In this document: in pieces, positions 2,565-16,656 of the stretch
Position numbering within the stretch: position 1 is the stretch's first letter
Layout: each line of letters opens with the position of its first letter
DNA from: Tychonema litorale BBK16
Lineage (GTDB): Bacteria > Cyanobacteriota > Cyanobacteriia > Cyanobacteriales > Microcoleaceae
NCBI RefSeq assembly: GCF_021648855.1
Contig: NZ_JAKJHX010000065.1
Span: 1 to 16,656, forward strand
DNA: 16,656 nt
Direction: 5' to 3'
Notes under the pieces: model-generated
Databases searched by the model: none
What the model saw: only the letters and a program-made list of their open reading frames with translations
What the model was told of the DNA's origin: nothing
Program-made: the position numbers and the translations under genes

Positions 2565-2617
2565 GTTTGCTAAATTTCAATGAATATCAATAGCATCGGA
2601 ATTAATATTACCCGAAA

Positions 2618-2688: not shown

Positions 2689-2730
2689 CTATCATCTCGC
2701 TCGTGGAACCTGAATTGATATCAAGGAGGC

Positions 2731-2793: not shown

Positions 2794-2808
2794 AGGTTGG
2801 TAGTCCGA

Positions 2809-3081
2809 TCAAGTGGCGCAAAATTCATTTGTACTGAGTAAAATTTCGCCGTAGTCAGGAATCCAAGCCAGCCATTTTTCCTCGGAACACTCACACAAAA
2901 GCCATGCTTCGTCAAAGCTGAATGCTGTTGGTGGATTGAATAATTTAACCCAGGTAGAAGCGGAAAATTTGGGTGTTGGTGCTGCGGGATTCGATGCCAA
3001 TTTTTCCCACCAGGCTCCACTTGCGACGCTTCCTTGACGAATTTTTGGCAACCAAGTACGAATATCTGTTTCTAGTTTCAT
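2809..3081 (-). CDS. 90-residue protein of unknown function
   Basis: Starts MKLETDIRTWLPKI and ends NEFCAT. The start at 3081 is chosen because an almost perfect Shine-Dalgarno, AGGAGGTG, occupies 3087-3094, 5 nt upstream; a longer reading frame back to 3183 lacks one. The protein is rich in Trp (six) and has no signal peptide or membrane segment, so it is probably cytoplasmic. No family is recognised. Single gene, followed by the inverted repeat at 2731-2793. Confidence 0.6.
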   Translation of the reverse strand: MKLETDIRTWLPKIRQGSVASGAWWEKLASNPAAPTPKFSASTWVKLFNPPTAFSFDEAWLLCECSEEKWLAWIPDYGEILLSTNEFCAT

Positions 3082-3154
3082 CTTCACACCTCCTGTCGAG
3101 GGATGAGTCTGCACCAGGGCTTGCAACAACGCAGGGCGAAGGGGCAGAAAATTG

Positions 3155-3183
3155 TTTATGTAGTCTATGTTACAGATTTTCAA
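3155..3183 (-). promoter_or_regulatory. Candidate promoter of the 90-residue protein gene
   Basis: On the minus strand, TTGAAA (3178-3183) and CATAAA (3155-3160) are separated by 17 bp. The -35 is a good match and the -10 matches 4 of 6. The transcript leader would be about 65 nt. Tentative. Confidence 0.3.
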
Positions 3184-3329
3184 TAGTAAATGTGCATGAT
3201 TGTAGTGAAACTTTACAATTCAGAGCCAAAAACTAGAGCAAAGCTGAAAAAAATTAAGTGGCTCTTGTGCGATCGGCAATAATCAATTACCATCACAAAA
3301 ATATCGGAGTTTTTTGAGCAAAAGTACGA

Positions 3330-3893
3330 ATGAACACAGTTGCAAAACCCCAATGGAAAACCCTAGACCGCTTTGTAGAAATCAAATCTGACTGGGTAAA
3401 ACTAATCGGCGAACACCTTGAAACTGGTGAAGGGCAAATTGTCGAATATTGGCGAGTAGAAAGGGCAGATTCAGTGGTAATTTTGACAATTCAAGCTGAC
3501 AAATTCCTGTTTCCCGCACCGATGTATCGCCCCGGTGTGGGAGAAGCAACCCTCGATTTTCCCGGCGGTCGCGTACCTGCCGGAGCAACAGCAGCAGCGG
3601 CAGTTCCAGCTATAATCAAAAGAGAATTAGGAGTGTCAGAAAGTGCGATCGCGCATATCGAGCCTCTCAACCTCATAGGATGGGCAATTAACAGTTCATT
3701 TTCCAATCAGAAACTCTACGGTTTTGTCGCAGAATTGCACCCTAAAGCAACAGTAAATCCCGAACTTATCGGTGCTACATATTCTGTAACGCCAACCGGA
3801 ATTAGTGATTTGCTAACAAAATTAACTTGTCTCCAATGTCGAGCATTATTGTTAGAATGGCAAAATCAATCAATTTTGGATTTTAGATTTTAG
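3330..3893 (+). CDS. Nudix-fold protein with degenerate Nudix box
   Basis: 187 residues. The layout (WRVERADSVVILTIQ, then LDFPGGRVPAGATAAAAVPAIIKRELGV) is that of ADP-ribose pyrophosphatase-like Nudix proteins. Aligning G80 with the first Gly of the box GX5EX7REUXEEXGU keeps the spacing exactly through Gly101-Val102, but the first Glu is Ala86, the Arg-Glu pair is Ala94-Ile95, and the Glu-Glu pair is Arg98-Glu99. Most metal-binding residues are therefore gone, and ordinary hydrolysis is unlikely. It may have become a ligand-binding protein, as happened in some Nudix-type regulators; that is inference. There is no clear ribosome binding site. A weak promoter (TTGTGC 3266-3271, 17 bp, TACCAT 3289-3294) could drive it. 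Confidence 0.75.
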   Translation: MNTVAKPQWKTLDRFVEIKSDWVKLIGEHLETGEGQIVEYWRVERADSVVILTIQADKFLFPAPMYRPGVGEATLDFPGGRVPAGATAAAAVPAIIKRELGVSESAIAHIEPLNLIGWAINSSFSNQKLYGFVAELHPKATVNPELIGATYSVTPTGISDLLTKLTCLQCRALLLEWQNQSILDFRF

Positions 3894-3916
3894 ATTAGGA
3901 TTTACGCATATATACT

Positions 3917-3985
3917 AAAGAAACCGGGTTTTTCATTTTAGTTAAAGGCTGGGATACAGTATTTTCGTAAAAAAACCCGGTTTCT
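3917..3985. repeat. Inverted-repeat element with AAAAACCCGGTTTCT arms, arrangement B
   Basis: The left arm AAGAAACCGGGTTTTT (3918-3933) pairs with AAAAACCCGGTTTCT (3971-3985) across a 37-bp spacer. Compared with 2731-2793 the arms are swapped, so the T-rich ends point inward here. It fills most of the gap between the Nudix-like gene and the ABC transporter genes. Confidence 0.7.
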
Positions 3986-4039
3986 GATTTCCCATGTGTC
4001 CATAACTGTTCAGGAAAACCAATATAACTGAAACTATCC

Positions 4040-4795
4040 ATGTCTTCCAACAATGAAACTGCTGTCCAATGCTTCGACGTCACCTATCGCCTCAACCGCC
4101 GAAACTTAGTAGAAAATCTCAATTTCAAAGTCTTACAAGGAGAAGTTTTAGTATTGCTAGGACGCAGTGGTAGTGGCAAAACTACTACCATGAAATTGAT
4201 TAACAATCTACTAACACCAAGCAGTGGCGAAATTACTGTCATGGGAAAACCGACAACTCAGTGGAACTCCATTCAACTGCGGCGAAAAATTGGCTATGTA
4301 ATCCAAGAAATCGGTTTGTTTCCCCATTTTACAGTTGAGCAAAATATCGGTTTAGTGCCAAAATTGGAAGGCTGGGAGGGCGATCGCATTCAATCTCGCG
4401 TCCACCAACTGCTAGAATTAGTCAATCTCGACCCCCAGCACTTCGCCAAACGCTATCCCAGCCAATTATCCGGCGGACAGCGACAGCGAGTGGGGGTTGC
4501 TAGGGCGCTAGCGGCAGACCCTCCCGTGCTATTAATGGATGAACCGTTTGGTGCTTTAGACCCGATTACTCGCCTGGAATTGCAGCGGGAATTCTATAAA
4601 TTGCAGCAGCAACTCGGCAAAACTGTGATTTTCGTGACTCATAGTATTCAAGAAGCTTTTTTGTTAGCTTCTAGAATTGGTTTGATGCAAAATGGACGGT
4701 TGGTTGAGTTGGCTTCTCCTGATGATTTTATGAAATCTCAGCAACCAGAAGCGATCGCTTTTTTGGAATGTTTGCAATTACCTGGAGCTGGATAA
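4040..4795 (+). CDS. ABC importer ATP-binding protein, glycine betaine/choline (OpuBA/OpuCA) type
   Basis: Cytoplasmic ATPase that would power uptake of quaternary amine osmoprotectants. Motifs: Walker A GRSGSGKTT (41-49), Q-loop Gln89 (VIQEIGLFPH), signature LSGGQRQR (143-150), Walker B VLLMDEP (163-169), D-loop GALD and H-loop His201 (FVTHSIQEA). The VIQEIGLFPHFTVEQNI segment is typical of the OpuBA/OpuCA/ProV group. At 251 residues it lacks the C-terminal CBS domains of longer OpuCA/OpuA-A proteins, so ionic-strength sensing through CBS is not expected. No Shine-Dalgarno is seen before the ATG. The permease gene follows after 7 bp, so the two form an operon. Confidence 0.85.
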   Translation: MSSNNETAVQCFDVTYRLNRRNLVENLNFKVLQGEVLVLLGRSGSGKTTTMKLINNLLTPSSGEITVMGKPTTQWNSIQLRRKIGYVIQEIGLFPHFTVEQNIGLVPKLEGWEGDRIQSRVHQLLELVNLDPQHFAKRYPSQLSGGQRQRVGVARALAADPPVLLMDEPFGALDPITRLELQREFYKLQQQLGKTVIFVTHSIQEAFLLASRIGLMQNGRLVELASPDDFMKSQQPEAIAFLECLQLPGAG

Positions 4796-4802
4796 TTCAT
4801 CA

Positions 4803-5450
4803 ATGATACAATTTATCAATCGTTATGGCTCAGAAATTATTCATCGCGCGATCGAACACTTATATTTAGTAACAATTGCCATTGCGATCGCGATTGCTTT
4901 GGGTATTCCCCTCGGTATTTTAATTACTAGAAAACCTCAGTTTAAAAAGACTATTTTGGGCTTTGCCAATATCATGCAAACTATTCCGAGTTTAGCATTA
5001 TTTGGTTTACTAATTCCCGTACCGATTATAGGCGGCATAGGCGATCGCACAGCCATCATTGCGCTGACTCTGTATTCTTTGCTACCAATTATCCGCAATA
5101 CTTATACTGGTATTATTGGTGTCGATCCTGCGATTCGCGAAGCTGGGAAAGGCATGGGGATGACGGATTGGCAATTGCTGTTGCAAGTGGAAATTCCCTT
5201 GTCAATGGGGGTGATTTTGGCGGGGGTGCGAGTTGCTGCGGTAATTGCGATCGGGCTAGCAACGATTGCTGCTGCGATCGGTGCGGGCGGTTTGGGAGTG
5301 TTTATTTTTCGGGGTGTGGCGACAGTGAATAATCAGTTACTTTTTGCTGGGGCAATTCCGGCGGCTTTGATGGCGCTAGCTGCTGATTTTGGGTTGGGTT
5401 TGATTGAACAACGGCTGTCGAAAAGTGAGGTGAAAACTCTGAATTTTTAG
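4803..5450 (+). CDS. ABC importer permease, glycine betaine/choline (OpuBB/OpuCB) type
   Basis: Inner-membrane subunit of 215 residues. Hydrophobic segments lie at about 20-41, 51-79, 83-97, 134-168 and 178-200. The cytoplasmic coupling (EAA) loop is seen at about 107-132: DPAIREAGKGMGMTDWQLLL. The MQTIPSLALFGLL segment is characteristic of OpuBB/OpuCB/ProW. The length fits the short, unfused OpuCB type, so the substrate-binding protein must be a separate gene, and none is present in the window. Transcription is likely shared with the ATPase gene and ends at the strong terminator 2 bp after the stop. Confidence 0.88.
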   Translation: MIQFINRYGSEIIHRAIEHLYLVTIAIAIAIALGIPLGILITRKPQFKKTILGFANIMQTIPSLALFGLLIPVPIIGGIGDRTAIIALTLYSLLPIIRNTYTGIIGVDPAIREAGKGMGMTDWQLLLQVEIPLSMGVILAGVRVAAVIAIGLATIAAAIGAGGLGVFIFRGVATVNNQLLFAGAIPAALMALAADFGLGLIEQRLSKSEVKTLNF

Positions 5451-5452
5451 AT

Positions 5453-5482
5453 AAAGCAGCCTGTGACAGGCTGCTTTTTTTT
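5453..5482 (+). terminator. Rho-independent terminator of the ABC importer operon
   Basis: An 11-bp perfect stem AAAGCAGCCTG / CAGGCTGCTTT with loop TGA, followed by a run that makes eight T in total. It starts 2 bp after the permease stop codon. Confidence 0.92.
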
Positions 5483-5492
5483 GGACTATTTT

Positions 5493-5518
5493 GGTAGGGA
5501 AACGGCATTGCCGTATCC
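5493..5518. repeat. Half copy of the nested palindromic repeat
   Basis: This 26-bp sequence matches the reverse complement of 2621-2646 at 24 of 26 positions. It is itself a palindrome around ACGGCA/TGCCGT. It lies between the converging ABC operon and WYL gene, ending 1 bp before the WYL stop codon. Confidence 0.65.
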
Positions 5519-5519
5519 T

Positions 5520-6371
5520 CTAATCCCGGATTTCCAGGTTGTACACGCGGCCAAGGTCAATAATTTCTTGTTGGAAGCGATCGCGCACATTCTGGGGTGA
5601 CACAATCTCGCAATCTTTGCCGTATCTCCGCACATCTCGAAACAGCCAGAATAGGTTAGATACCCGCTTCACCACATGACGCACGTCTCCCACCATTTCA
5701 TTTGCCACATCTTCATCCGGTTTGAATTCATAGTTCCTAGCCAATCCTTTGAAAAAGTGTAAGTGTACTTCTAGATAATCTATGTTTTCGCGCCATGTTT
5801 CACTTGCAGGTAACAAGTTAACAATCTTGTCCAAGCGCAAACACCGATTGTGAGCTAATTCCGGGATTTCTTTGGAGTCAGGATCGTCGCACCAGATTTC
5901 GAGGTACAGGCGCTTGTCGTAAAGGCGAATGTTGGCACTGCGGGCGGTAAATTCGCTCACTTTATCTTTGCCTGACTGGTAAAACAATCTGAACGGTTGG
6001 CGATCGGCCTTAAGTTGATTGAGTCGAAGTCTCCACGCTTCATTAGTTTGGCTGACTTTTTCGAGCAATTGTTGTCGCATAGGGGCTTCCAGATTGGCTC
6101 TGTCTAAGAGTAAGCCCAGTACAATCTGGGCGGCTTCGACTTCGCCGGAGTCGTTAAGGAATTTGACGGCTTTGTCCAAGGATTGTACCTGCACTGAATT
6201 GAGTGTAAAGGGTTCGCCAACTTCGATTGTTTGTTGGGCGATCGCGACCAGTAACCCAGATACGCTGGGACTTTTGCCCCATTTGATGCCGAGGCGAAGG
6301 GCGATCGCCTCTAGCTGTTCTTTGGTTCCGGTCGGTATTGACAGTGTAATCGTCTCTTTTTTGCGGGGCAT
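5520..6371 (-). CDS. RHH-WYL transcription regulator of the type I-D locus
   Basis: 283 residues from the ATG at 6371. Residues 1-50 (MPRKKETITLSIP, then a helical stretch ending VSGLLVAIAQQ) look like a ribbon-helix-helix DNA-binding domain. A WYL domain covers about 115-190, with the core strand RLYLEIW (154-160) and the conserved basic segment RCLRLDKIV (176-184). A WCX-like C-terminal region follows (about 200-280). WYL regulators are common beside cyanobacterial type I-D loci, and one in Synechocystis (Sll7009) was reported to act negatively on the I-D CRISPR. The gene faces the cas operon across 167 bp, so control of the shared intergenic region is likely (inference). No Shine-Dalgarno precedes the ATG, but upstream in-frame codons offer no better start. 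Confidence 0.85.
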   Translation of the reverse strand: MPRKKETITLSIPTGTKEQLEAIALRLGIKWGKSPSVSGLLVAIAQQTIEVGEPFTLNSVQVQSLDKAVKFLNDSGEVEAAQIVLGLLLDRANLEAPMRQQLLEKVSQTNEAWRLRLNQLKADRQPFRLFYQSGKDKVSEFTARSANIRLYDKRLYLEIWCDDPDSKEIPELAHNRCLRLDKIVNLLPASETWRENIDYLEVHLHFFKGLARNYEFKPDEDVANEMVGDVRHVVKRVSNLFWLFRDVRRYGKDCEIVSPQNVRDRFQQEIIDLGRVYNLEIRD

Positions 6372-6379
6372 TGAATTAA

Positions 6380-6439
6380 GTGTAACTACATACTTGACAA
6401 CTTGGGTTTTAGATGTAAATATAATCTTAGTGCAATTAC
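6380..6439. promoter_or_regulatory. Paired direct repeats GTGYAAYTAC in the WYL/nuclease divergent region
   Basis: GTGTAACTAC at 6380-6389 and GTGCAATTAC at 6430-6439 differ at two positions and are exactly 50 bp apart, close to five helical turns. They bracket the candidate plus-strand promoter. RHH proteins usually bind short direct or inverted repeats, so these are candidate operators for the divergent WYL regulator. Function is inferred only. Confidence 0.4.
6394..6425 (+). promoter_or_regulatory. Candidate promoter of the nuclease-cas operon
   Basis: Perfect consensus hexamers TTGACA (6394-6399) and TATAAT (6420-6425), but with a 20-bp spacer instead of 17. The leader to the ATG at 6539 would be about 105 nt. 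Over-long spacers with good hexamers are seen in promoters that need an activator to realign them. Confidence 0.5.
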
Positions 6440-6469
6440 AAAACCTATGGATCGGAAAACCAGGACTTA

Positions 6470-6489
6470 TGCGACTGGCACAAGTCGCA
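6470..6489 (+). other. Stem-loop in the leader of the cas operon
   Basis: TGCGACT (6470-6476) pairs perfectly with AGTCGCA (6483-6489) across a 6-nt loop. It is not followed by a T run, so it is not a standard terminator. The stretch from about 6461 to 6502 resembles the ends of a dispersed cyanobacterial repeat (AGGACTTAYGC ... GGTGCGTCAG); that resemblance is from memory. Confidence 0.4.
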
Positions 6490-6538
6490 AGGTGCGTCAG
6501 CCTCAAAACTCTCGATAATTCCGTATATGGAGTTGAAT

Positions 6539-7552
6539 ATGAGTCTCCCCGAAGATTACAAAAATTTACTCATTGAAGTCAAACAGCGAATTCGTGCCGC
6601 TCAGTATGAGGCACTTAAAGCTGTCAACAAACAACTGATAGCCCTTTATTGGGATATTGGCAAAACCATCGTCACTCGCCAAGAGGGTGCGAGTTGGGGA
6701 AAATCTGTAGTCGAACAACTGGCAAAAGATTTACAAGCTGAGTTTCCAGGAATTAGCGGATTCTCGGCTGCAAATCTTTGGCGGATGAGGCTTTTTTACG
6801 AAAGCTATGCTGAAAATGAAAAACTCGCACCAATGGTGCGAGAAATTGGTTGGACTCACAACATTGTCATTTTAGAGAAGTGTAAAGACGACTTAGAACG
6901 CGAGTTTTATCTTCGCATGGCGCGCAAATTTGGCTGGACGAAAAATGTCTTGATTCATCAAATTGAAAATCAAACCTATGAGAAAACACTGCTGAATCAG
7001 ACAAACTTCGATCGCGCCCTCTCTGAAGCAGATCGCGATCGAGCAAAACTGGCAGTTAAGGATGAGTATACCTTTGATTTTTTGGAATTAGGGGACGAAC
7101 ATAGCGAACGCCAGCTAGAACAAGAAATTTTAACCAAAGTCGAGCCTTTTCTCAAAGAAATGGGGGGAATGTTTGCGTTTGTTGGCAGTCAGTATCGCTT
7201 GGAAATTGAGGGTGAAGAATTTTTTATCGACCTCGTTCTCTATCACCGCCAGTTGAAATGTTTGGTAGCTGTCGAACTCAAAATTGGTAATTTTTTGCCG
7301 GAGTATGTAGGGAAGATGCAGTTTTATCTGGCAGTTTTGGACAGTACAGCCAAGTTGCCGGATGAAAATTCTGCGATCGGCATCATTCTGTGTAAGTCCA
7401 AGAATAAAACGATTGTTGAATATGCGTTGAGAGAGTCAAATAAGCCGATCGGGGTGGCGACTTATAAATTTGTTTCTACGGTTCCTCAAGAACTGAAAAA
7501 TCAATTACCTGCGCCGGAACAAGTTGCAAAACTTTTACAAGGAATAGATTGA
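6539..7552 (+). CDS. PD-(D/E)XK nuclease, DUF1016 (YhcG) family, first gene of the cas operon
   Basis: 337 residues. The N-terminal half (about 5-155: LALYWDIG-type segment, GWTHN at about 120, EREFYLRMA) is the DUF1016 N-terminal domain. The C-terminal half (about 175-330) is a PD-(D/E)XK nuclease fold with Asp231 in FFIDLVLYH and Glu246-Leu247-Lys248 in VAVELKIGNFLPEYVGKM, so the metal-binding core looks intact. Start at 6539 is chosen because GGAG (6529-6532) lies 6 nt upstream; an ATG at 6527 is the alternative. The stop is 2 bp before the cas3' ATG, a spacing that implies translational coupling. The family occurs in defence and restriction contexts and its natural substrate is poorly known. 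A role in I-D immunity is suggested only by position. Confidence 0.85.
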   Translation: MSLPEDYKNLLIEVKQRIRAAQYEALKAVNKQLIALYWDIGKTIVTRQEGASWGKSVVEQLAKDLQAEFPGISGFSAANLWRMRLFYESYAENEKLAPMVREIGWTHNIVILEKCKDDLEREFYLRMARKFGWTKNVLIHQIENQTYEKTLLNQTNFDRALSEADRDRAKLAVKDEYTFDFLELGDEHSERQLEQEILTKVEPFLKEMGGMFAFVGSQYRLEIEGEEFFIDLVLYHRQLKCLVAVELKIGNFLPEYVGKMQFYLAVLDSTAKLPDENSAIGIILCKSKNKTIVEYALRESNKPIGVATYKFVSTVPQELKNQLPAPEQVAKLLQGID

Positions 7553-7554
7553 AA

Positions 7555-9735
7555 ATGGCAGATTATTCTATAACTCTTAAGTCGGTTTACTCCTGTCCCG
7601 CTGCGGAAATTCCCAAGAAAGTCAAATTACCGGAAAATTGGACACTTTCTTGGCATCAACTTGAAACTTTAAAGGCAATTCGCGATCCGAATATTGATGT
7701 TATTTTCAACTTTGCTATCACTAGCGATGGCAAAAGTTTAGCCGCTTTTTTAGAAACATTGCAGACAAATTGTTGTGCAGTGGCGCTATATCCAACGAAT
7801 GAACTGGCGCGAGATCAGGAGACTCAAATTAAGCGCTATATCGAACAATTCCAACCGGAACATCAACCCCGCGTGGTGCGACTCAGCGGGTCGGAATTAG
7901 AAATCTATGCAGAAAATGAAAAACTGAGAAAAGCAGCCGCGATCGCATCTCGCACAAGTCAATCAGAGATTTTATTAACTAATCCTGATATCTTGCACTA
8001 TCTCCACCGAGGAGCGTATTTAAGCTCTGAAGATAGCCCTGATAAACTGTGGGGTCGCATCGACAAAGATTTTGACCTATTCATTTTTGATGAATTTCAT
8101 GTTTTTGCGGCTCCTCAGATTGCCAGCGTCATCAATACCCTGTTATTAATTCGCCATACAAACCGCCGGAAAAAGTTTGTATTTCTGTCAGCAACTCCAG
8201 ACGAGCAATTAATTAGCAGACTAGAAACAGCAGGGTTTCGCTGTCAAACTATCGATCCTTTAAAAGCAGGCAAATATCGGTTTCCCGATCGCCCCGCCGA
8301 AATCGAACAGTTGAAAGCAGACTCCTGGCGGCAGATATTAAGGGAAAGTACGCTGACTTTCATTTCCCTAGAACCAACTTCAAAAGCTTCTGAAACTTGG
8401 CTGAAAGACAGCGCAAATCTCATCCTGACTCACTTTCAAAACAATCCGGGGAGTAAAGGAGCGATTATCCTGAATTCCATTGCTGCCGTCAAGCGGCTGA
8501 CACCATTTTTTCGGAAATTGTTCGAGCCTCACGGTTTAGTTGTTGGCGAAAATACCGGGTTGTCGGGAAAGACGGAAAAAGAGCGATCGCTCTCGTCAGA
8601 CTTAGTTCTCGGTACTAGCACCATTGATGTCGGGGTAGACTTCAAAATCAATTTGCTGATTTTTGAATCCGCCGATGCCGGCAACTTCATCCAAAGATTG
8701 GGAAGGTTGGGGCGACACGATGGGTGCGATCGCAATGGGGAGTTTATTCAGTTTAAAAATTTCACAGCCATCGCACTCACCCCTAATTTCTTAGTCGAAC
8801 GCTTGTTTGCAGGCGATACTGCCACTTTAGAGTCTAGTGGAATTTACGATCGTCCTTTTTTCTATCAACAAATTCGCGAAAACTACCGCCAAATCAACAA
8901 TTTTGAGGGATATTATTCGCGGTGGGGTGCGGTGCAGTCTGTTCAAATTTGTTGGACATTAGAGCACAGGACAATTAAACAGCAGTACGCATCAAGTCAC
9001 AAAGCTTTTCAGGAAGCTGCTCAAAAAGTATTTAAAACTAGCTTGGGGAAAGTAGCCGGTGATATTAAACAGTGGGGCAAAGAGTGGCAAGAGCGATCGG
9101 GAAATAAGACAGGAAATCCGATTGTTGAAGATGCTAGCAGTTTTCGAGGTTCTAGTCCCCTGCAATGCGGCATTTGCGATTTAACCGATTCCCACGAAGC
9201 AGACAAATTTAAGACTTACGATTTACCAGGAATTTTGAGCAATTTGGAAATCGAACCGATGACGGAATTTGTATTTATGCAAATGTTGAAGGAGACATCG
9301 GAACGCCTTGGGCAACCGATCGCAAAAGGTCGATTTAAACACTGTCTGGCTTTTTTGAAGTTGCGTAGTTATCGGGAGGAAAGACTGAATTGGAAATTTA
9401 CTTATTCGGGAAATTTAGAGGAAAATGCTGCTGCTTGGAAGGTTCAGGTTTTAACGGGGATTGAGGTTGTGCAACCTGAGAATTATTGGATCTGGGAAAT
9501 CAACAAGCGTTTGAAGAAGCAAGCATTGGTTTGTTATGTGCTGCGTTATCCGGTGGCTGAAGTGCGATCGCGCCTGCGACTGCCGGTACACTTTCAGATT
9601 TATCCGATTTGCGATCGGTACAGTATCCACGATGCGACTGCACCTTATTCGATCGCCTTTGGGCAGTCAGCGCTGTTGGTGGACACGCTAGCCCACTGGC
9701 TCAAAAGCAAGGGGGATGAAGTATGGATTGCTTAG
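7555..9735 (+). CDS. cas3: Type I-D CRISPR-associated helicase Cas3'
   Basis: 726-residue superfamily 2 helicase that unwinds target DNA after recruitment by the I-D surveillance complex. Motifs: I, ITSDGKS (55-61); II, DEFH (179-182); III, SAT (212-214); V, GTSTIDVGVD (353-362); VI, QRLGRLGR (380-387). The N-terminus (YSITLKSVYSCPAAE) and the variant P-loop TSDGKS are typical of the I-D/cyanobacterial Cas3. It has no HD nuclease domain, as expected for I-D, where HD is on Cas10d. The ATG at 7555 is preferred; a TTG at 7549 overlapping the upstream stop is possible. Part of the operon beginning at 6539. Two CRISPR-repeat-like sequences begin 2 bp after its stop codon. Confidence 0.95.
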   Translation: MADYSITLKSVYSCPAAEIPKKVKLPENWTLSWHQLETLKAIRDPNIDVIFNFAITSDGKSLAAFLETLQTNCCAVALYPTNELARDQETQIKRYIEQFQPEHQPRVVRLSGSELEIYAENEKLRKAAAIASRTSQSEILLTNPDILHYLHRGAYLSSEDSPDKLWGRIDKDFDLFIFDEFHVFAAPQIASVINTLLLIRHTNRRKKFVFLSATPDEQLISRLETAGFRCQTIDPLKAGKYRFPDRPAEIEQLKADSWRQILRESTLTFISLEPTSKASETWLKDSANLILTHFQNNPGSKGAIILNSIAAVKRLTPFFRKLFEPHGLVVGENTGLSGKTEKERSLSSDLVLGTSTIDVGVDFKINLLIFESADAGNFIQRLGRLGRHDGCDRNGEFIQFKNFTAIALTPNFLVERLFAGDTATLESSGIYDRPFFYQQIRENYRQINNFEGYYSRWGAVQSVQICWTLEHRTIKQQYASSHKAFQEAAQKVFKTSLGKVAGDIKQWGKEWQERSGNKTGNPIVEDASSFRGSSPLQCGICDLTDSHEADKFKTYDLPGILSNLEIEPMTEFVFMQMLKETSERLGQPIAKGRFKHCLAFLKLRSYREERLNWKFTYSGNLEENAAAWKVQVLTGIEVVQPENYWIWEINKRLKKQALVCYVLRYPVAEVRSRLRLPVHFQIYPICDRYSIHDATAPYSIAFGQSALLVDTLAHWLKSKGDEVWIA

Positions 9736-9736
9736 A

Positions 9737-9849
9737 AGGTCAAGCCCTAATAGGGAGTTTACATTGTACAGAAGTCAATGCTGGGAAAGCATCAAACAAA
9801 GGAGTAGGCGAGGTTTCAATCCCTAATAGGGGCTTGGATTTGCTTAAAC
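9737..9849 (+). CRISPR. Degenerate two-repeat mini-CRISPR (CreA/CreR-like candidate) between cas genes
   Basis: Copy 2 (9813-9849) is exactly 37 nt, opens with GTTTCAATCCCTAATAGGG and ends TTAAAC, a form close to cyanobacterial CRISPR repeats. Copy 1 (9737-9773), aligned on the shared 11-bp palindromic core CCCTAATAGGG (9745-9755 and 9821-9831), matches it at 22 of 37 positions and has lost the GTTTC end. The cores are 76 bp apart, giving a 39-nt spacer-like segment (9774-9812). Only two diverged copies exist. That is the pattern of pseudo-repeats flanking a spacer in CreA/CreR RNAs, or of a decayed array. There is no convincing protein-coding content here. Confidence 0.55.
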
Positions 9850-9990
9850 ATTTGCAAACAGTTTTAGTTTCCCAGGAGGCAACCCTAGCAGATAAAGGTG
9901 AAAATGTCAAAAATTACTTTCTTGCGACATTTAAAGTTGAGTTTGGTAAGAGGTGGTAAAAAAGAAATGGTTCTCGCTTACTCATTTAGC

Positions 9991-10010
9991 AGTGTTACAC
10001 TGACAGTGTT
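9991..10010. promoter_or_regulatory. Overlapping palindromes upstream of the coiled-coil gene (operator candidate)
   Basis: AGTGT-T-ACACT (9991-10001) overlaps ACACTG-A-CAGTGT (9997-10009), so three alternating half-sites share one centre; AGTGTT also recurs directly at 9991 and 10005. The reverse strand contains AGTGTAAC, which is also at 6379-6386 in front of the WYL gene. No clear -35/-10 pair is visible, although TACACT (9996-10001) could serve as a -10. Confidence 0.45.
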
Positions 10011-10033
10011 GTGATCCACGAGGAGAACTGCCC

Positions 10034-10306
10034 ATGTCCCAGCAAAACCTTGACGCTGACCAACTACACCATTTGCTTTGTGCTTTAACAGAAGACCTGA
10101 ACCAATTCCGGCTTCATACCTCAATTTTGCACAAATGTCAACAGCTTGTAACTATTGTCTACAATCAACAAACTAAAATTCAGTCACTTGAGGCTGAAAA
10201 TACTGCTCTCAGAAGCATTAATCGCGATCGAGCAGACAAAATTTTTGAATTGGAGTGTCTAGTAAATCCTTTTTCTCAAGATGGAGATGCTATTTGCAAT
10301 GAATAA
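10034..10306 (+). CDS. Small coiled-coil protein encoded within the I-D operon
   Basis: 90 residues, unknown function. The start is well supported by GAGGAG (10020-10025) 8 nt before the ATG. Residues 1-35 are predicted helical (DADQLHHLLCALTEDLNQFRLH). Residues about 38-78 have coiled-coil character with hydrophobic heptad positions (LVTIVYNQQTKIQSLEAENTALRSI). The protein is probably cytoplasmic, since no signal or membrane segment is seen. It sits between cas3' and cas10d, 40 bp before cas10d, preceded by an operator-like palindrome, so it may have its own regulated transcription start. It does not match any standard I-D subunit that I know. It could be an accessory or regulatory partner of the complex, or an unrelated insertion. 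Confidence 0.7.
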   Translation: MSQQNLDADQLHHLLCALTEDLNQFRLHTSILHKCQQLVTIVYNQQTKIQSLEAENTALRSINRDRADKIFELECLVNPFSQDGDAICNE

Positions 10307-10346
10307 TCTGTTTTCGGTACTAACATAGACTCCCTAGAGGCATAAA

Positions 10347-13300
10347 ATGGCTAAAAAACGTCAAAAACCAGATGAAGAGTACCAACAACTCTCATTATTT
10401 GATATCCCAGTTAATTTGAACTCTGAACAATCCGATGATGCAGATGATGACTGGTTGCAAGATGAAGAATTAGGAGCAAACTTTCAAACGTCCGATCGCA
10501 CGATCGAACCTCAAACTCGCGACTTACTAACCCTCAAACTCTTGCGAGAAGCCATTCAGAGTCAAAATCCAGGCGATCGCGTCATGGGAGACTTCGCAGA
10601 ATATGTCTTGCCAAATCTGCTGCGAGTTGCGATCGGTGTCACAGCCAAAGGGGGCAAATTTTTTGACGAACTCGATCGCAAGCAAGGAAAAGAGAATGTC
10701 AGGCGCGATAACGCAGGCGATCAGTCCCTAAATACTCACCTGCTAAATGGATTATTTCCTGCTAATTTAATTGAACAGCGGTTAGAAAAACTCGATACCA
10801 CCGTGCGGCGATCCGTAGGAGAAAAAGAACGGCGGTTAGTAATTGCTGGATTTATTCTACACGACTTTGAAAAATTCCCCGATGTCCCCAACGATTGCCG
10901 CAAGTTACCGCTAGAAAAGCACCGTCAAATTATTGATGAAAAAGTGCGACAGTTAGGACTAGATAGCTTCATCAATCCCGACGATCCAGATGCTTATCGA
11001 GAATACATTGACGATTTACTCTGTCTTGCTTACAACGCTCAGCGACGTTGGGATACTAACTGGAACTTTTCCGAATTTGGGTTAAATCCAGTTTTGCGCG
11101 ATCGCACGCTTCGCAGTCTCTCAGACTTAACCTGTTTAGCAGATTCCCTAGCATCTATTATCAAACATCCCCAAGATGCCGAAAATACCAGGCTAAACGA
11201 GTTAATCCATAGCCTCAGCGACGGGCAATTAAAATTCACTTATCACAGCATCGCTGAAAACAGAGGCGTACTTACCAACGTCGTCAATAACGCTTTAATG
11301 GAAGTGCATACGGCGCTGAATACCGACGATTGTACCTACTATGAAGCATTGCTTTACCTGCCAACAGGTGTAATTTATCTAGCGCGATCGGATGCTCCTG
11401 CTATTTCAATTGTAGACTTGCCCAAACGAGTAGTTAGCAAGATTAAACAACTCTGCGCCGGACAATTGCAACGGCGACAAACTGGTTTTGGCAGAGATGG
11501 TAAAGGCATGAAATATGCCGAGTATTATAACCTGTTTTTTGATACGTCAGAGTTGATGCTAGTTGCTGTTGATGCTACTTTACGCATTCTCAGAATAGGG
11601 AAAAACTCTGTCGCCAAAAGTCGCAGCGATAATCTGATAAAATTTCAGCGTCAGGATGTTTTGTCTGCTGATTATAAGTTCAATTTTGACGACGATATTC
11701 GGATCGACCAGATTGCTGAACTTGGCGATTTAGTGAGTCGCAAGATTTGGGGAGAACAGGTTAATACCATCGAAGCTGCACGCAAGAAAGACAAAAAATC
11801 ACCCGCACTACCTCATCTAGATATTGTCGATGAAATTGCTAAGTTTTGGAACCTGTCCGAGTATCTACCAGCCCTGAGAGAAATTCAACGGATTAATGAA
11901 CGGCTGAAAGAACTCAAACTAAAAGGCAATACAGGCGGCGTTCCTTACGAATGGTACTATTTAGCAGCAAAGTACCTAGAACATCACCCAGGAATTGAGG
12001 ATGTGCGGCAGGTTTGCGAACAGGCGATCGCCCACATTTCCCAAATGATTAAACCCATTCTTTCACAGTACAAATTGCCCGACGGTTGGGACGATTTGCG
12101 GTTGTGGGTAACGCGGGTTGTCATGTTACCCGGAAATACACCATTAGACATAGCATCCGGTAACGTATTTTTAGATGAATTGGAACGCTACCAACTCGCT
12201 AAAAAACAGGGTAGAGGAAGACAGTTAATCTGTTCGATTTCCCATTCAGCTTACACGGTGACAGAACAAATGGAATCAGCCGTTTTGTTCACCCCTCAAG
12301 TTTACACTAACAAACAAATGTTGGGAGGTTCTAACGCCAAACGCAATATTTCTAGTATTGCAGGTTTGGAAATGATGCTGAGGCAAATTTTAATGAATCA
12401 AACTCAAGCTGTGGGCAAAAAATTTGAAGATGGCAAATATCGCTATCTCTATTTTTATCCCACATATTACTTCACCCCAGAAACAAATAAGTTTCTGCAA
12501 AAAGCCTACACTAGCATTTTTCAAACCCGCTTTGATACCAGCATTCGCAATCATTTTATCAGCAAGGATTTGCAAGCCGATTTTGGGCGCGATCGCTACC
12601 AAAGCATCGATGCTTTCCTAATCGATGAAAACATCGAATCAGGAAAAGACCGCACCTTCAAACTTTCCTATCCCGAAGACCAACCCCTAACATTTTACTT
12701 CATGGCGCTTCCGCCCGGCCGAGATGCAACTGATACCGAATCTTGGGTAATGCCAACTTGGTTAGCTTTTGCCTTCCCGATGATTCTGGACGTAAAAACC
12801 GTGGTTTCCGAGTCGCCAATTCCGCCATTTAATGACGGTGCTGACTTTGAGGAAAGCGTATTTTTGGATAGCGCACCGCCAGCTTTTCGGGTTTTGACGA
12901 AGCGCGATCGATTTCGTCTTGACTATATCTTAGAAGGATGGGAGGAAAACGGCAAAAAATACCCTGCACCTTTGAATGTTTTAACTGCTGCTTATGCGAT
13001 TCACCTTGATGTTAATGCAAAACAAGGGAAGTCCGGTTATGACTCCAACTGGGGAAAATTAACTGAACTCGCCACTGATTTTGAAACCAGCCCGCTTTAT
13101 GTGTTTAGCTACCTAAATAAGTGGGTTCGCAAACAGAAAAATGAAACGGCATCAATTCAAAAAATCAAGCTTTATGCTTATCATTTTTACCCTTGCTTTG
13201 ACGCTTATGCCCAATATAATTTCATATCAGAGGAATGGAACGTGAGAGAACAATCAAGCCTAAATCACCCTGTCAATTTGACAGGATTATATCGCAGATT

Positions 13301-13769
13301 TTATCTAGCTGACAAGCGGTATAATCCGAAAGCAAATTCTGTGTTAAAACCGATTGATATTGCATCTAAAGTTGTCCTTGATGCCCATCCAAGTTTTGAA
13401 GGTGATGTCATATTACCTACTGTTATTGAGGAAAATCCAAGTTTTCAAAGTAAAGCATTAATTGCTACTGTTACTGGGGAAATATGCAAGCTGATGGATC
13501 GAGTTCATGCTAAAACTGCTAATGGACGCTGGGTATTTAATGCTAAACAACGTGATCTAGAACGAGAGGCGATTTTAGAGTTTGCTCGCTACTTTGTTGA
13601 GGAGGTATTTGAGAAATCATTTGCGGGCGATCGCGCTCGTTTAGCCGGCCGACAAATCAATCTAATCCGAGATACTTGCGAATTTCTTTACCGTTTAGAG
13701 AATGACAAAGACAATCGCACACCAGATGACAAATCTCCTGACGATTTACAAGAGGAAGCTGACAATTAA
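10347..13769 (+). CDS. cas10d: Cas10d (Csc3), type I-D large subunit with HD nuclease domain
   Basis: 1140 residues. Cas10d is the large subunit of the I-D surveillance complex, takes part in PAM recognition, and carries the HD nuclease that in other type I systems is on Cas3. The N-terminal HD-type domain shows His131 in DQSLNTHLLNG and His172-Asp173 in FILHDFEKFPD. The long middle part has the Csc3 layout without a GGDD cyclase motif that I can see, as expected for I-D. The extreme C-terminus is acidic (TPDDKSPDDLQEEADN). A ribosome binding site (TAGAGG) lies about 6 nt before the ATG. The 3' end probably also encodes Cas11d from an internal start. csc2 follows after 69 bp. Confidence 0.95.
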   Translation: MAKKRQKPDEEYQQLSLFDIPVNLNSEQSDDADDDWLQDEELGANFQTSDRTIEPQTRDLLTLKLLREAIQSQNPGDRVMGDFAEYVLPNLLRVAIGVTAKGGKFFDELDRKQGKENVRRDNAGDQSLNTHLLNGLFPANLIEQRLEKLDTTVRRSVGEKERRLVIAGFILHDFEKFPDVPNDCRKLPLEKHRQIIDEKVRQLGLDSFINPDDPDAYREYIDDLLCLAYNAQRRWDTNWNFSEFGLNPVLRDRTLRSLSDLTCLADSLASIIKHPQDAENTRLNELIHSLSDGQLKFTYHSIAENRGVLTNVVNNALMEVHTALNTDDCTYYEALLYLPTGVIYLARSDAPAISIVDLPKRVVSKIKQLCAGQLQRRQTGFGRDGKGMKYAEYYNLFFDTSELMLVAVDATLRILRIGKNSVAKSRSDNLIKFQRQDVLSADYKFNFDDDIRIDQIAELGDLVSRKIWGEQVNTIEAARKKDKKSPALPHLDIVDEIAKFWNLSEYLPALREIQRINERLKELKLKGNTGGVPYEWYYLAAKYLEHHPGIEDVRQVCEQAIAHISQMIKPILSQYKLPDGWDDLRLWVTRVVMLPGNTPLDIASGNVFLDELERYQLAKKQGRGRQLICSISHSAYTVTEQMESAVLFTPQVYTNKQMLGGSNAKRNISSIAGLEMMLRQILMNQTQAVGKKFEDGKYRYLYFYPTYYFTPETNKFLQKAYTSIFQTRFDTSIRNHFISKDLQADFGRDRYQSIDAFLIDENIESGKDRTFKLSYPEDQPLTFYFMALPPGRDATDTESWVMPTWLAFAFPMILDVKTVVSESPIPPFNDGADFEESVFLDSAPPAFRVLTKRDRFRLDYILEGWEENGKKYPAPLNVLTAAYAIHLDVNAKQGKSGYDSNWGKLTELATDFETSPLYVFSYLNKWVRKQKNETASIQKIKLYAYHFYPCFDAYAQYNFISEEWNVREQSSLNHPVNLTGLYRRFYLADKRYNPKANSVLKPIDIASKVVLDAHPSFEGDVILPTVIEENPSFQSKALIATVTGEICKLMDRVHAKTANGRWVFNAKQRDLEREAILEFARYFVEEVFEKSFAGDRARLAGRQINLIRDTCEFLYRLENDKDNRTPDDKSPDDLQEEADN
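13242..13769 (+). CDS. cas11d: Cas11d small subunit from an internal start within cas10d
   Basis: In the Synechocystis I-D system the small subunit is translated separately from the 3' end of cas10d. Here, in frame with cas10d, GAGGAA (13230-13235) stands 6 nt before a GTG (13242), codon 966. The product would be 175 residues (about 20 kDa), starting MREQSSLNHPVNLTGLYRRF and mostly helical, the right size for Cas11. No comparable Shine-Dalgarno/start pair was seen elsewhere in the last 600 bp; the ATG at 13494 would give only 91 residues. The sequence fact is the ribosome binding site plus in-frame start; use as Cas11d is inference from the family. Confidence 0.6.
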   Translation: MREQSSLNHPVNLTGLYRRFYLADKRYNPKANSVLKPIDIASKVVLDAHPSFEGDVILPTVIEENPSFQSKALIATVTGEICKLMDRVHAKTANGRWVFNAKQRDLEREAILEFARYFVEEVFEKSFAGDRARLAGRQINLIRDTCEFLYRLENDKDNRTPDDKSPDDLQEEADN

Positions 13770-13838
13770 AGCTGAATATTTTGTGCGATCGGCTACAGGC
13801 TAACTACAAAACTAACATTTTTACATAGGACACAAATC

Positions 13839-14852
13839 ATGCCTTTCTTGAAAACAGTTGACTCTAAATTTTTCCACACTAACATCCCTTACAAACCAAT
13901 GGGTAAATATGTACATTTCCTGACTGTGCGGGTGACGGAATCTTATCCGCTGTTTCAGACAGATGGAGAACTGAATAAAGCGCGGGTGAGGTCAGGAATT
14001 CAAGACCAAAAACCAATCAGCCGCTTGACCATGTTTAAGCGCAAGCAATCTACACCAGAACGTTTAGTCGGTCGCGAGTTGCTGCGTAACTACGGTTTTA
14101 TGACCGCTGAAGATTGCGAATACAATGTCAAGTTTGCCATGAATAACCCTGATTGCATTATCTACGGATTTGCGATCGGTGATTCGGGTTCAGAAAAGTC
14201 AAAAGTCGTAGTTGACACAGCATTTTCAATTACCGCTTTTGACGAATCTCACGAGACTTTTACCCTCAATGCTCCCTTTGAGAATGGCACAATGGCATCC
14301 AAAGGTGAAGCAGGTTCAAAAGCGGGCGAAGTTACCAGTCGCATCAATCAGCAAGACCACATCAAACCCCAGATTTTCTTTCCTAGTATTGTCACTCTAA
14401 AAGACCCTACAGAAGCTAGCTTTTTGTATGTTTTCAACAACATCCTCAGAACGCGGCATTATGGCGCTCAAACCACCCGCACAGGTAGAGTCAGAAATGA
14501 GTTAATTGGTGTAGTATTTGCCGACGGCGAAATTACCAGCAACCTCCGCTGGACGCAAGCAATTTACGACAAATTGCAGCTTGACGATAAGCTGAATTCC
14601 AACAATCCTCTCAATGAAGATGATGTGATTGTGAGTGCTAGCGCTGCTATCCAAACATTAATGTCTGAGGAATTTATCGTGCATCAGGACTTGATTGGGG
14701 ATAAGTTTACGCCATTAGTGACAGAGGTGAAAGCGATTATTGGCAATGAAGATGAACTGAAAAAGATGTTGAAAAAAGCTGATGATGAAGCTAAAGCTTA
14801 CGCGAAGAAGCATATCAAAAGTAAGGCAGGATCTACAGCAGCAGCGGAGTAA
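13839..14852 (+). CDS. csc2: Csc2 (Cas7d), backbone subunit of the I-D complex
   Basis: 337 residues. Csc2 is the Cas7-like protein that polymerises along the crRNA to form the backbone of the surveillance complex. Recognised from the N-terminus (SKFFHTNIPYKPMGKYVHFLTVRVTESYPLF), the ERLVGRELLRNYGFMTAEDCEYN block and the basic segment RTRHYGAQTTRTGRVRNELIG (204-224), which suit an RNA-binding RRM-like fold. The C-terminus is Lys/Ala-rich (about 310-337). AGGA lies 8-9 nt before the ATG. csc1 begins 5 bp after its stop, so the two are coupled. Confidence 0.96.
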   Translation: MPFLKTVDSKFFHTNIPYKPMGKYVHFLTVRVTESYPLFQTDGELNKARVRSGIQDQKPISRLTMFKRKQSTPERLVGRELLRNYGFMTAEDCEYNVKFAMNNPDCIIYGFAIGDSGSEKSKVVVDTAFSITAFDESHETFTLNAPFENGTMASKGEAGSKAGEVTSRINQQDHIKPQIFFPSIVTLKDPTEASFLYVFNNILRTRHYGAQTTRTGRVRNELIGVVFADGEITSNLRWTQAIYDKLQLDDKLNSNNPLNEDDVIVSASAAIQTLMSEEFIVHQDLIGDKFTPLVTEVKAIIGNEDELKKMLKKADDEAKAYAKKHIKSKAGSTAAAE

Positions 14853-14857
14853 ATATT

Positions 14858-15577
14858 ATGACTTTGATTTACCGCTGTCAAATCGAGTTGCACGATAGCC
14901 TTTATTTTGCAACTCGCGAGATAGGAAGACTTTACGAAACAGAGCCTGTAATTCACAATTACGCGCTTTGTTACGCCCTCGGTTTGGTGGATAGCGAAAT
15001 CTATGCTACCACCGTTGCTGAAGAACATTCCTATCGCTATTTTTGCCCCGAACAAATCCCTAAATATGAGCAGCATTTAACGGCGCTCAACCAACAGGGG
15101 ATTTATGTCACTCCGGCCCGATCGCTCTTTCACTCCTCTACTCTCAACACTTGGAAATACGCCAACAACAATTATCACGTTGAGATGGAGAAAACCCAGA
15201 AAAACATCCCCAGTTTTGGCAGAACCAAAGAAATTGCGCCGGAAAGCAAATTTGAGTTTTTCATTATCTCAGAAAAGGCTTTAAAACTGGCTAAATGGAT
15301 TCGTTTGGGAAAGTGGATGACTAAAGCTGAGTTGAAGATTAAGGAACAGAAGGAAGTGAAGCGATCGCAATCTGAAGCAGACGTAATCTTTCCCTATCTA
15401 CTCAATCCTTTAGATGTGATGTTTTCCCATCAAGTGATTAGCTACGATGTGGTGAATATGCCTCCGGTTAGCCTCATCCAAAATGTCAAAATGAGAGGGC
15501 AATATTATGAGTTTGACAATGAATCTTACAAACTCAAAATTCCTGGTTGCATGGAATATCGCTTTCGCGCTGATTAA
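14858..15577 (+). CDS. csc1: Csc1 (Cas5d), crRNA 5'-handle binding subunit of the I-D complex
   Basis: 239 residues. Csc1 is the Cas5-like subunit that caps the crRNA 5' handle and helps PAM contact together with Cas10d. The N-terminus (TLIYRCQIELHDSLYFATREIGRLYETEPVIHNYALCYALGL) is the characteristic Csc1 block; the FEFFIISEKALKLAKWIRLGKWMTKAE segment and the C-terminal MPPVSLIQNVKMRGQYYEF also fit. Length is normal. It follows csc2 by 5 bp and is separated from cas6 by 88 bp that contain a dispersed hairpin repeat. Confidence 0.95.
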   Translation: MTLIYRCQIELHDSLYFATREIGRLYETEPVIHNYALCYALGLVDSEIYATTVAEEHSYRYFCPEQIPKYEQHLTALNQQGIYVTPARSLFHSSTLNTWKYANNNYHVEMEKTQKNIPSFGRTKEIAPESKFEFFIISEKALKLAKWIRLGKWMTKAELKIKEQKEVKRSQSEADVIFPYLLNPLDVMFSHQVISYDVVNMPPVSLIQNVKMRGQYYEFDNESYKLKIPGCMEYRFRAD

Positions 15578-15627
15578 TGCGAGGCGGAGCCTCTAGAAAT
15601 GCGTTCCTAGGTAGAACCTGGGAACGC
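15578..15627. repeat. Dispersed double-hairpin repeat between csc1 and cas6
   Basis: GAGGC/GCCTC (15581-15593) forms a short hairpin. GCGTTCCTAGGT (15601-15612) pairs with ACCTGGGAACGC (15616-15627) over a 3-nt loop as a 12-bp stem with one G-U pair. It looks like a family of hairpin repeats common in filamentous cyanobacteria. There is no T run after it, so it could pause transcription or stabilise RNA 3' ends rather than terminate. Confidence 0.65.
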
Positions 15628-15665
15628 TAATTTAGACAAATAACCAATTTTAACCATTAACAATT

Positions 15666-16496
15666 ATGCCGCACAGCCTCATCCTCAACCTTCTTCCCAT
15701 CGCCCCAATTCCCCCCGGATACCTCACCGGCAGACACCTGCACGCACTCTTCCTCACCCTCGTGAGCTCCGTTGACAAACAACTCGGCGATCGCCTCCAC
15801 GACGCCACAGCCCAAAAATCCTTCACTCTCAGCCCTTTACAAACTAGAAAATGCCCTTTCAAAAAACACCATTCCCTGCAATGGGAACACACGGAAGCGA
15901 TTCCAGAACATACTCCCTGTTGGTGGCGAATTACACTGCTTGATGACTCTTTATTTAGCAAATTAACTCACCTTTGGCTGAATATTAATCCCTCCAAACC
16001 CTGGCATCTTGGCCCGGCAGATTTGCTGATTACTAAGATTCTCGGAACACCTCAAATAGACCAACCTTGGGCTAATGCTTGTACTTATTCTCAACTTTAC
16101 GAACAAGCTTCGGAAACTAATCGCTTAATTGCCTTCAGTTTTGCAACTCCTACTACTTTTCGGCAGGGAAAGTTTGATTCGGTGATTCCGACTAGAGATT
16201 GCGTTTTCAACAGTCTCCTCAGTCGGTGGAATAAGTACAGCGGCATTGAGATTCCCGATCTTTCATTAGATGCACTTTTTTCGACATTTGTAAATATCAA
16301 AACTGAAAGATTGACTAACTATGAAATCAATTTTGTGGGGATGGTTGGAGAGGTTAGTTATCGGATTTTGGGAGATGTGGAGCCTTTGGTGATTAAGCAA
16401 ATTAATGCTTTGGCTGATTTTGCGCTTTACTGCGGGGTGGGGAGGAAAACTCCGATGGGGATGGGGATGACTCGGCGGATTGTTGTTAATAAATAA
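15666..16496 (+). CDS. cas6: Cas6 CRISPR RNA endoribonuclease (type I-D)
   Basis: 276 residues. Cas6 cuts the CRISPR transcript within each repeat to release mature crRNAs. The N-terminal ferredoxin-like domain carries His24 and His26 in GRHLHALFL, a likely catalytic histidine region. The C-terminal glycine-rich loop GVGRKTPMGMGM (257-268) is the family signature. No Shine-Dalgarno precedes the ATG; the gap to csc1 is 88 bp and includes a hairpin repeat, so its translation is not tightly coupled to csc1. It ends the visible operon; cas4-cas1-cas2 and an array usually follow but are outside the window. Confidence 0.93.
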   Translation: MPHSLILNLLPIAPIPPGYLTGRHLHALFLTLVSSVDKQLGDRLHDATAQKSFTLSPLQTRKCPFKKHHSLQWEHTEAIPEHTPCWWRITLLDDSLFSKLTHLWLNINPSKPWHLGPADLLITKILGTPQIDQPWANACTYSQLYEQASETNRLIAFSFATPTTFRQGKFDSVIPTRDCVFNSLLSRWNKYSGIEIPDLSLDALFSTFVNIKTERLTNYEINFVGMVGEVSYRILGDVEPLVIKQINALADFALYCGVGRKTPMGMGMTRRIVVNK

Positions 16497-16517
16497 GAGT
16501 TAAACGTAAAACTCATA

Positions 16518-16656
16518 GATTCTACCCGGCGGTTGAAACCGCGTCTACACACACAAAACCTGCCTCCGCAGGTTGAAGATTTCACCTGATGATTTCTGAT
16601 CGATTCTACCCGGCGGTTGAAACCGCGTCTACACACACAAAACCTGCCTCCGCAGG
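16518..16656. repeat. Tandem 55-bp double-hairpin repeat after cas6 (reaches window edge)
   Basis: Two identical 55-bp copies (16518-16572 and 16602-16656; period 84 bp) begin GATTCTACCCGGCGG. Each holds GCGGTT-GA-AACCGC, and each carries CCTGC-CTCC-GCAGG. The 29-bp linker is unique. It is not a CRISPR array: the repeat is too long, has two hairpins and looks like a dispersed repeat family. The second copy ends exactly at the window edge, so more units may follow. Confidence 0.75.

Follow-up and report, generated by a model that had tools for sequence, protein, structure and literature searches.

What is the segment with two diverged repeat-like sequences that directly follows cas3' in the type I-D CRISPR locus of Tychonema litorale BBK16, and what could it act on? 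The stretch of DNA analyzed here (the window; 16,656 bp, positions 1 to 16656 of a contig of 28,727 bp; the genome has 5.27 Mb in 226 contigs) holds a type I-D set according to profile matches, with cas3', cas10d, csc2, csc1, and cas6 together in the window, while cas1 and the true CRISPR array lie beyond it on the same contig. An earlier note, made from the sequence of the window, had read the segment as a candidate guide RNA of the CreA/CreR type. The features to which the following analysis refers are these:

7549 to 9735, plus strand: cas3' of type I-D (TIGR03158)
9737 to 9773, minus strand: psiR2, the 3' pseudo-repeat (copy 1), with a degenerate handle (4/8) and 17/29 agreement with the array repeat at the other positions
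9774 to 9812, minus strand: psiS, the 39-nt spacer-like guide, which starts CTCGCCTACTCCTTTG and is unchanged relative to the sister locus L039
9813 to 9849, minus strand: psiR1, the 5' pseudo-repeat (copy 2), whose handle ATTGAAAC is that of the array (8/8), with 18/29 agreement at the other positions
9882 to 9910, minus strand: candidate guide-RNA promoter (TTGACA at 9905 to 9910, 17 nt, TAGGGT at 9882 to 9887)
9970 to 9987, plus strand: GTT PAM (9970 to 9972) and the pairing part of the protospacer (guide positions 1 to 15 except 6 and 12)
9996 to 10001, plus strand: TACACT, by sequence a possible but weak -10 box of an ORF90 promoter, without a good -35
10034 to 10306, plus strand: ORF90, the first gene behind the target, encoding a small coiled-coil-like protein that ends NPFSQDGDAICNE
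10347 to 13769, plus strand: cas10d (csc3; TIGR03174), starting 40 bp after ORF90
15666 to 16496, plus strand: cas6 (TIGR01877), the expected processor of the candidate guide

The 11-bp core that the earlier note had described as shared by the two sequences, CCCTAATAGGG, was located at 9745 to 9755 and 9821 to 9831, 76 bp apart, and it has no further copy in the whole genome. The shared stretch is longer than this core (16 nt, 15 of them identical), and with up to one mismatch allowed, the window contained four matches, i.e., the two places on both strands, against 0.14 expected. The true array consists of 39 to 40 copies of a 37-nt repeat (contig positions ∼19053 to 21958; GCCGCAATAAACCTAAATCCCTATCAGGGATTGAAAC on the plus strand) with a repeat-to-repeat spacing of 70 to 83. 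Comparison with this repeat revealed that the pseudo-repeats are related to it but inverted: the agreement lies on the minus strand, and psiR1 has the same length of 37 nt and the identical handle. Thus, the description of copy 2 as a 37-nt sequence with a preserved end that copy 1 has lost stood up (8/8 versus 4/8), whereas the preserved end itself, GTTTCAAT, had to be reinterpreted as the inverted handle, being the reverse complement of the 3' handle given above. Considering the inversion, the minus strand would encode the guide, with copy 2 as the first (5') repeat of the RNA, and its predicted direction is opposite to that of the cas genes and divergent from ORF90. On the same strand, the array core CCCTATCAGGG and the pseudo-repeat core CCCTATTAGGG have an identical 4-bp stem and differ at one loop base. 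The predicted hairpins are weak (-5.5 kcal/mol for psiR1 and -3.3 kcal/mol for psiR2) and no better than those of shuffled sequences, the two repeats pair with each other in the predicted fold of the whole precursor, and an Rfam search of the window yielded no match at the gathering score.

A potential target of the guide was found nearby, upstream of ORF90 and cas10d. The start of psiS, CTCGCcTACTCcTTT, pairs with GTT-CTCGCtTACTCaTTT at 9970 (plus strand, GTT CTCGCTTACTCATTT), 61 bp upstream of ORF90, with mismatches within guide positions 1 to 15 at positions 6 and 12 only, and GTH followed by the psiS seed occurs once in the genome. For type I-D, GTN and GTH have been given as PAMs in the consulted part of a review (PMC10212523), and one assay found higher activity with GTT and GTC targets than with GTA (PMC7648086, as excerpted); in I-B CreA, positions 1 to 5 and 7 to 11 are described as paired and positions 6 and 12 as unpaired (PMC8501985, in part). 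Relative to L039, the element has a single change in 113 nt and the next 120 nt have 15, with the target differing only at guide positions 6 and 15. The functional unit seems to reach past the pseudo-repeats to the 9970 target and ORF90; the minus-strand orientation, this target, and the linked, exchangeable first gene had not been part of the earlier note. As for transcription, the L039 equivalent of the candidate guide promoter is TTGACA-17-TATACT, and the TACACT box falls within the stretch that a full-length guide would cover, while a strict promoter scan listed none in 9700 to 10060. Over the related loci described below, consensus promoters were moderately enriched near the target (27/71, versus 17% of shuffles) and modestly enriched for the guide itself (24/89, versus 15% of shuffles).

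Related loci came in two sets. For the first, a cas3' search covering 388 genomes from the same order gave matches in 168 at an E value of ≤1e-60, from which 120 loci were used (128 with a cas3' end, minus 8 that were second copies within a genome or too short). The second set comprised 42 further loci (80 named loci, minus 38 whose first 120 nt behind cas3' equaled those of an earlier locus) and is not fully independent, as some of its members are still close relatives (e.g., L212, L226, and L227). L227, a contig from a metagenome-assembled genome titled Gammaproteobacteria, carries a cyanobacterial-type I-D cas3' (66%) and is probably a binning error; its guide start is that of L212 and L226. 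Among the named loci, those closest to the window by cas3' belong to Microcoleaceae or Microcoleus. The repeat motif was fixed after the arrays had been viewed and the seed rule after the first loci had been viewed, so that the 42-locus set alone received both unchanged. Sites were scanned on both strands up to 600 nt downstream as GT-N plus a 10-position seed, and the psiR1 position was set by hand in three loci with CCCG-type repeats (L044, L137, and L141).

Two repeat-like sites with a pair score of at least 24/32 were present in the first 260 nt of 68 of the 120 loci, compared with 0 of 2,400 shuffles. psiR1 could be assigned in 85/120 loci of the first set, with best sites of 10/10 in 31, 9/10 in 34, 8/10 in 7, and lower in 13, and in 29/42 loci of the second set under the unchanged rule, with 10/10 in 12, 9/10 in 13, 8/10 in 2, and lower in 2. 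Together, 114 of 162 loci have psiR1, and a GT-flanked site of at least 9/10 accompanies it in 90 and of at least 8/10 in 99; the other 15 lack a site of at least 8/10 even when other registers and PAMs are tried. In controls run against these same gaps, foreign seeds reached 9/10 in ∼1 of 850 tests in the first set, where 10/10 was never reached, and in 0 of 290 in the second (1/1,140 together), and shuffled seeds reached at least 9/10 in ∼7 of 850 (∼0.8%). Only 1 of 357 true array spacers, from nine loci, attained 9/10 against the gap of its own locus; this was in L051, whose guide scores only 8.

Features outside the selection rule were compared as well. The third PAM base of the 90 pairs was T in 48 and C in 42, so that all were GTT or GTC, whereas T or C follows GT in 57% of the background. 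Pairing statistics were calculated for 58 distinct pairs, among which there were 36 different seeds: only 21, 21, and 26% matched at positions 6, 12, and 18, respectively, whereas positions 13 to 16 matched in 83, 74, 64, and 59% (versus 42, 34, 35, and 39% in shuffled pairs), and the match rate was approximately at background from position 20 on. The 25 held-out pairs gave a position profile of the same shape. The mismatches at 6, 12, and 18, together with the background rate from position 20, indicate the pairing pattern of a type I effector with complementarity that ends early. Moreover, the pseudo-repeats of L044, L137, and L141 have CCCG/CGGG stems (in L141, one of the two only), and further repeat copies with the same stem occur in these genomes, whether on the same contigs or not. 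Two sites of at least 8/10 were detected in the gap of 31 of the 114 loci, arranged head to head 1 to 2 bp apart or in tandem ∼22 to 33 bp apart (e.g., L087, L114, and L155), while among 1,140 foreign tests none gave two sites and 24 gave one. To our knowledge, neither CreA nor CreR has such paired targets under a single guide.

Some loci extend the range of arrangements. L053, L152 to L155, and L162 seem to form a separate I-D branch in which only one good pseudo-repeat follows cas3' (at a distance of ∼49 nt), the sites lie on the opposite strand, and the first gene encodes a RAMA-domain protein. In L288 (G001:C194) and L291 (G104:C269), HTH genes are accompanied by a guide and a 10/10 site; csc2 of the former contig is only 35% like that of the window, so that a divergent branch of I-D may have the module as well.

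The anatomy, the conservation, and the covariation of guide and site can be read directly from these sequences, and they make it very likely that the minus strand of 9737 to 9849 is a two-repeat mini-CRISPR, i.e., a guide module of the CreA/CreR type in a type I-D system. The reading proposed in the earlier note thereby gained support from the genome-unique, PAM-flanked seed match mismatched at 6 and 12 only, the near-complete conservation relative to L039, the recurrence in other I-D loci with a variety of seeds, and the stems that follow the local array. Two of the refuting conditions set in the earlier note, an unrelated true repeat and a lack of conservation in sister strains, did not come true. 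On the opposite side stand the 15 psiR1 loci lacking a site, the 48 loci that have no psiR1 in its usual position, the better-scoring array spacer of L051, the weak hairpins, and the modest promoter signals. In the mechanism that we infer, a minus-strand transcript would start near 9875, and the Cas6 of the locus would cut behind the stem of each pseudo-repeat to give a crRNA-like RNA with the 5' handle AUUGAAAC. The I-D Cascade (Cas10d, Csc2, Csc1, and Cas6) would load this RNA and bind GTT-CTCGCnTACTC at 9970. Since pairing would stop after ∼15 to 17 nt, which is presumably insufficient to license cutting, Cascade would just cover the promoter region ahead of ORF90, and the block of ORF90 would, via cotranscription, also lower cas10d and the genes behind it. 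Loss of Cascade, its titration by crRNAs, or its inhibition by an anti-CRISPR would lift the block.

The gene that the module may control was analyzed further. ORF90 is a conserved 90-amino-acid protein with seven homologues, among them two from Microcoleus and one from Kamptonema, and it received no family name from Pfam, PADLOC, PHROGs, or NCBIfam, with neither a toxin domain nor a KilA-N domain found. From the 99 site-bearing loci, 82 proteins fell into five first-gene families, one of which, the HTH family, was delimited by an ad hoc motif after its cluster had merged with unrelated proteins. Families and seeds correspond: GAATAnGTCTG and AAATAnGTCTG seeds accompany a small HTH protein (PADLOC HTH model), TTCCG, TTCGC, and TTCTC seeds accompany a ∼63-amino-acid protein with two QLxLF/QLxLxL motifs (QLELF type), ACTGT seeds accompany a RAMA-domain protein, and mixed seeds, including that of the window, accompany the coiled-coil family of ORF90. 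The two QLxLF/QLxLxL motifs were present in 16/16 members of the QLELF-type family (L042:15285-15473 and 15 relatives), at least one being found in 5% of shuffles; QLSLPL or QLELPL occurred in 4/5 members of another family (L132:1231-1482), one motif occurred in 3/6 RAMA proteins, and the ORF90 family had none (0/29). The SocB toxin blocks replication via the sliding-clamp motif QL(S/D)LF (PMC9690074, in part), and the first-gene proteins with clamp-like motifs are possible replication blockers.

Loci whose cas3' is 93 to 98% identical to that of the window differ in their first genes, which are of the ORF90 type in the window and L039, the QLELF type in L037, and the HTH type in L038; L035, of the same identity group, lacks the cassette, and its cas3'-cas10d gap is only 66 bp. 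Seven of the 48 loci (among 162) without psiR1 at the usual place hold a member of a first-gene family, and in four of these (L114, L125, L126, and L198), the guide is displaced and a site of 9/10 or 10/10 lies close to the gene, while no guide was detected in the other three (L089, L104, and L200). These swaps between near-identical cas loci and the displaced guides suggest that guide, site, and gene tend to move as one cassette. Many loci also have one to four other genes between target and cas10d, with gaps of up to 2 to 3 kb. Such gaps (e.g., in L084 and L091) contain DUF433/DUF5615 and nucleotidyltransferase/HEPN toxin-antitoxin-like pairs, named by eye from translations, as well as YhcG-type nucleases; the YhcG gene of the window (6527 to 7552) instead overlaps the start of cas3'. 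Outside I-D loci, ORF90-like proteins with the C-terminal motif ECLxxPxSxDGDAICN were observed at L301 to L312, at several of which the gene adjoins one for a ∼285-amino-acid protein without a Pfam family above cutoff.

Two roles for such a module have to be weighed. The guide may be an antitoxin that restrains a harmful small protein, here ORF90, as in CreTA or CrePA; we regard this as a serious possibility, just short of probable, and if true, the cassette would addict the cell to Cascade or punish phages that carry anti-CRISPRs. This role is favored by the cassette swapping, in which first genes change together with their guides among the loci with near-identical cas3', by the rarity of first-gene members lacking a detected guide (just 3 of the 48 loci that have no psiR1 in its usual position), and by the resemblance of the motifs of one family to the clamp motif of SocB. 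ORF90 itself, lacking a toxin domain and a clamp motif, fits it less well, as does the HTH family, which looks regulatory, and the KilA-N domain typical of CreP (PMC12737573, in part) was not found in ORF90. Moreover, ORF90 relatives were examined at 15 places other than the window and L039: 13 had no guide-like pair from -900 to +700 nt of the match start, and the remaining two had only weak pairs with 6/8 handles; such C-terminal relatives without a convincing guide argue against ORF90 as an obligately held toxin.

The other role, possible but on balance less likely than not, is CreR-like: the guide would serve autorepression of the cas10d operon, with the first genes as accessories. The position of cas10d 40 bp after ORF90, with no promoter-like site known between them, favors a cas-autoregulatory role, and the creTA intergenic region of Haloarcula hispanica also drives the downstream cas genes (PMC9458426, in part). 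In many loci, however, the other genes mentioned above intervene between target and cas10d, and first gene and seed change jointly while the cas genes stay, a pattern more in keeping with a cassette than with an intrinsic cas promoter. The guide could also have both roles simultaneously, as in H. hispanica, where deleting the creTA region reduces the transcripts of downstream cas genes as well (PMC9458426, in part).

Other explanations do without a guide. A decayed remnant of a real array, the main alternative in the earlier note, would account for the 37-nt length, the degenerate second copy, and a 76-bp spacing like the 70 to 83 of the array, but it is very unlikely: the element is inverted, occupies the same place in many loci, and is nearly unchanged in L039, and decay leaves unexplained a seed/PAM match that ignores positions 6 and 12. 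We rejected it on the seed/PAM matches and the 6/12/18 pattern across loci. Slightly less credible still is that a protein regulator, e.g., a small HTH protein, binds at the shared words, as the double sites of 31/114 loci, some head to head 1 to 2 bp apart like palindromic operators, and the company of HTH genes with the commonest seeds might suggest; in every case, the match begins precisely where the pseudo-repeat handle ends, GTT or GTC stands at the target only, mismatches fall at 6, 12, and 18, and seeds with non-HTH genes, including that of the window, follow the same logic. Finally, ORF78 (9723 to 9959), a 78-amino-acid frame across the cas3' stop that is also open in L039 and had one weak tblastn match over the repeat (L042; 36 amino acids, 39%, E value of 3e-4), can be dismissed as a conserved small protein gene with incidental repeats, because 13 of 16 changes relative to L039 fall at codon positions 1 and 2, tblastn found no match in L037, L038, or L052, and the two pseudo-repeats sit in different frames relative to each other.

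With the mini-CRISPR guide module as the preferred reading, we tentatively extend it, somewhat short of calling it probable, to an exchangeable guard cassette of cyanobacterial I-D loci that would usually lie right behind cas3' and comprise an inverted guide, one or two targets, and a small protein gene, drawn from several unrelated kinds and released at Cascade failure. If so, there would be CRISPR-guarded protein effectors with swappable payloads, of which the members with clamp motifs may stop replication, and harmful payloads would make up a new set of such effectors. Through the module, repression guided by Cascade would come to include type I-D, which has been described as the type I system found most often in cyanobacteria (63.2% of the genomes surveyed; PMC11903412, in part), and the module offers an explanation for the changing small genes that so often separate cas3' from cas10d. 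In addition, the ∼90 natural guide/target pairs provide material for work on seed rules and PAM preference, on repression through dual sites, and on surveillance by Cascade in photosynthetic hosts. The top-ranked results of our literature search, which leave aside the primary CreTA, CreR, and CrePA papers where an I-D prediction may stand, contained no link of CreA, CreR, or CreTA to type I-D in their consulted parts; likewise, word searches found no mention of toxins in a 2023 I-D review (PMC10212523) and none of toxin, CreR, autoregulation, or mini-CRISPR in a 2025 cyanobacterial review (PMC11903412).

Compared with known systems, the element is closest in build to CreA of CreTA (I-B in haloarchaea and I-F in Acinetobacter), which, in the consulted parts of PMC8501985 and PMC10097628, likewise has diverged pseudo-repeats around a spacer-like part with the psiR1 handle better kept, limited pairing of positions 1 to 5 and 7 to 11 beside a PAM, and a guide divergent from the controlled gene. 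The I-F CreA sits in a cas3-csy1 gap that is absent from relatives (same sources), and here the gap is likewise missing from L035. The creTA described earlier are placed around cas6 of type I or III systems (PMC10097628, in part), whereas the system of the window is type I-D and the element is not beside cas6. CreTA controls a mini-ORF toxic RNA, while protein genes of at least 58 amino acids stand behind the target here, and two targets occur in 31/114 loci, unlike in CreA. CreR, whose distribution is given as I-B, I-E, and V-A, without I-D, in a 2026 review (PMC13131331) or as "Type I and Type V-A" (PMC12737573) in the consulted parts, resembles the element as a crRNA-like RNA partly complementary to a promoter, here a putative one, of its own cas locus. 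CrePA likewise combines a guide RNA with a protein-coding controlled gene at a CRISPR locus, although CreP typically has a KilA-N domain (PMC12737573, in part), which ORF90 lacks. Unlike in CreR, the first gene behind the target is here an exchangeable small gene rather than a cas gene, with cas10d second. The tracr-L of type II-A is also a natural guide that makes a Cas effector a repressor of a cas promoter, but it belongs to another CRISPR class and has another RNA architecture. Thus, the working principle is a known one, and what would be new is the CRISPR subtype, the recurrent location, the protein-coding exchangeable cargo, and the frequent paired targets.
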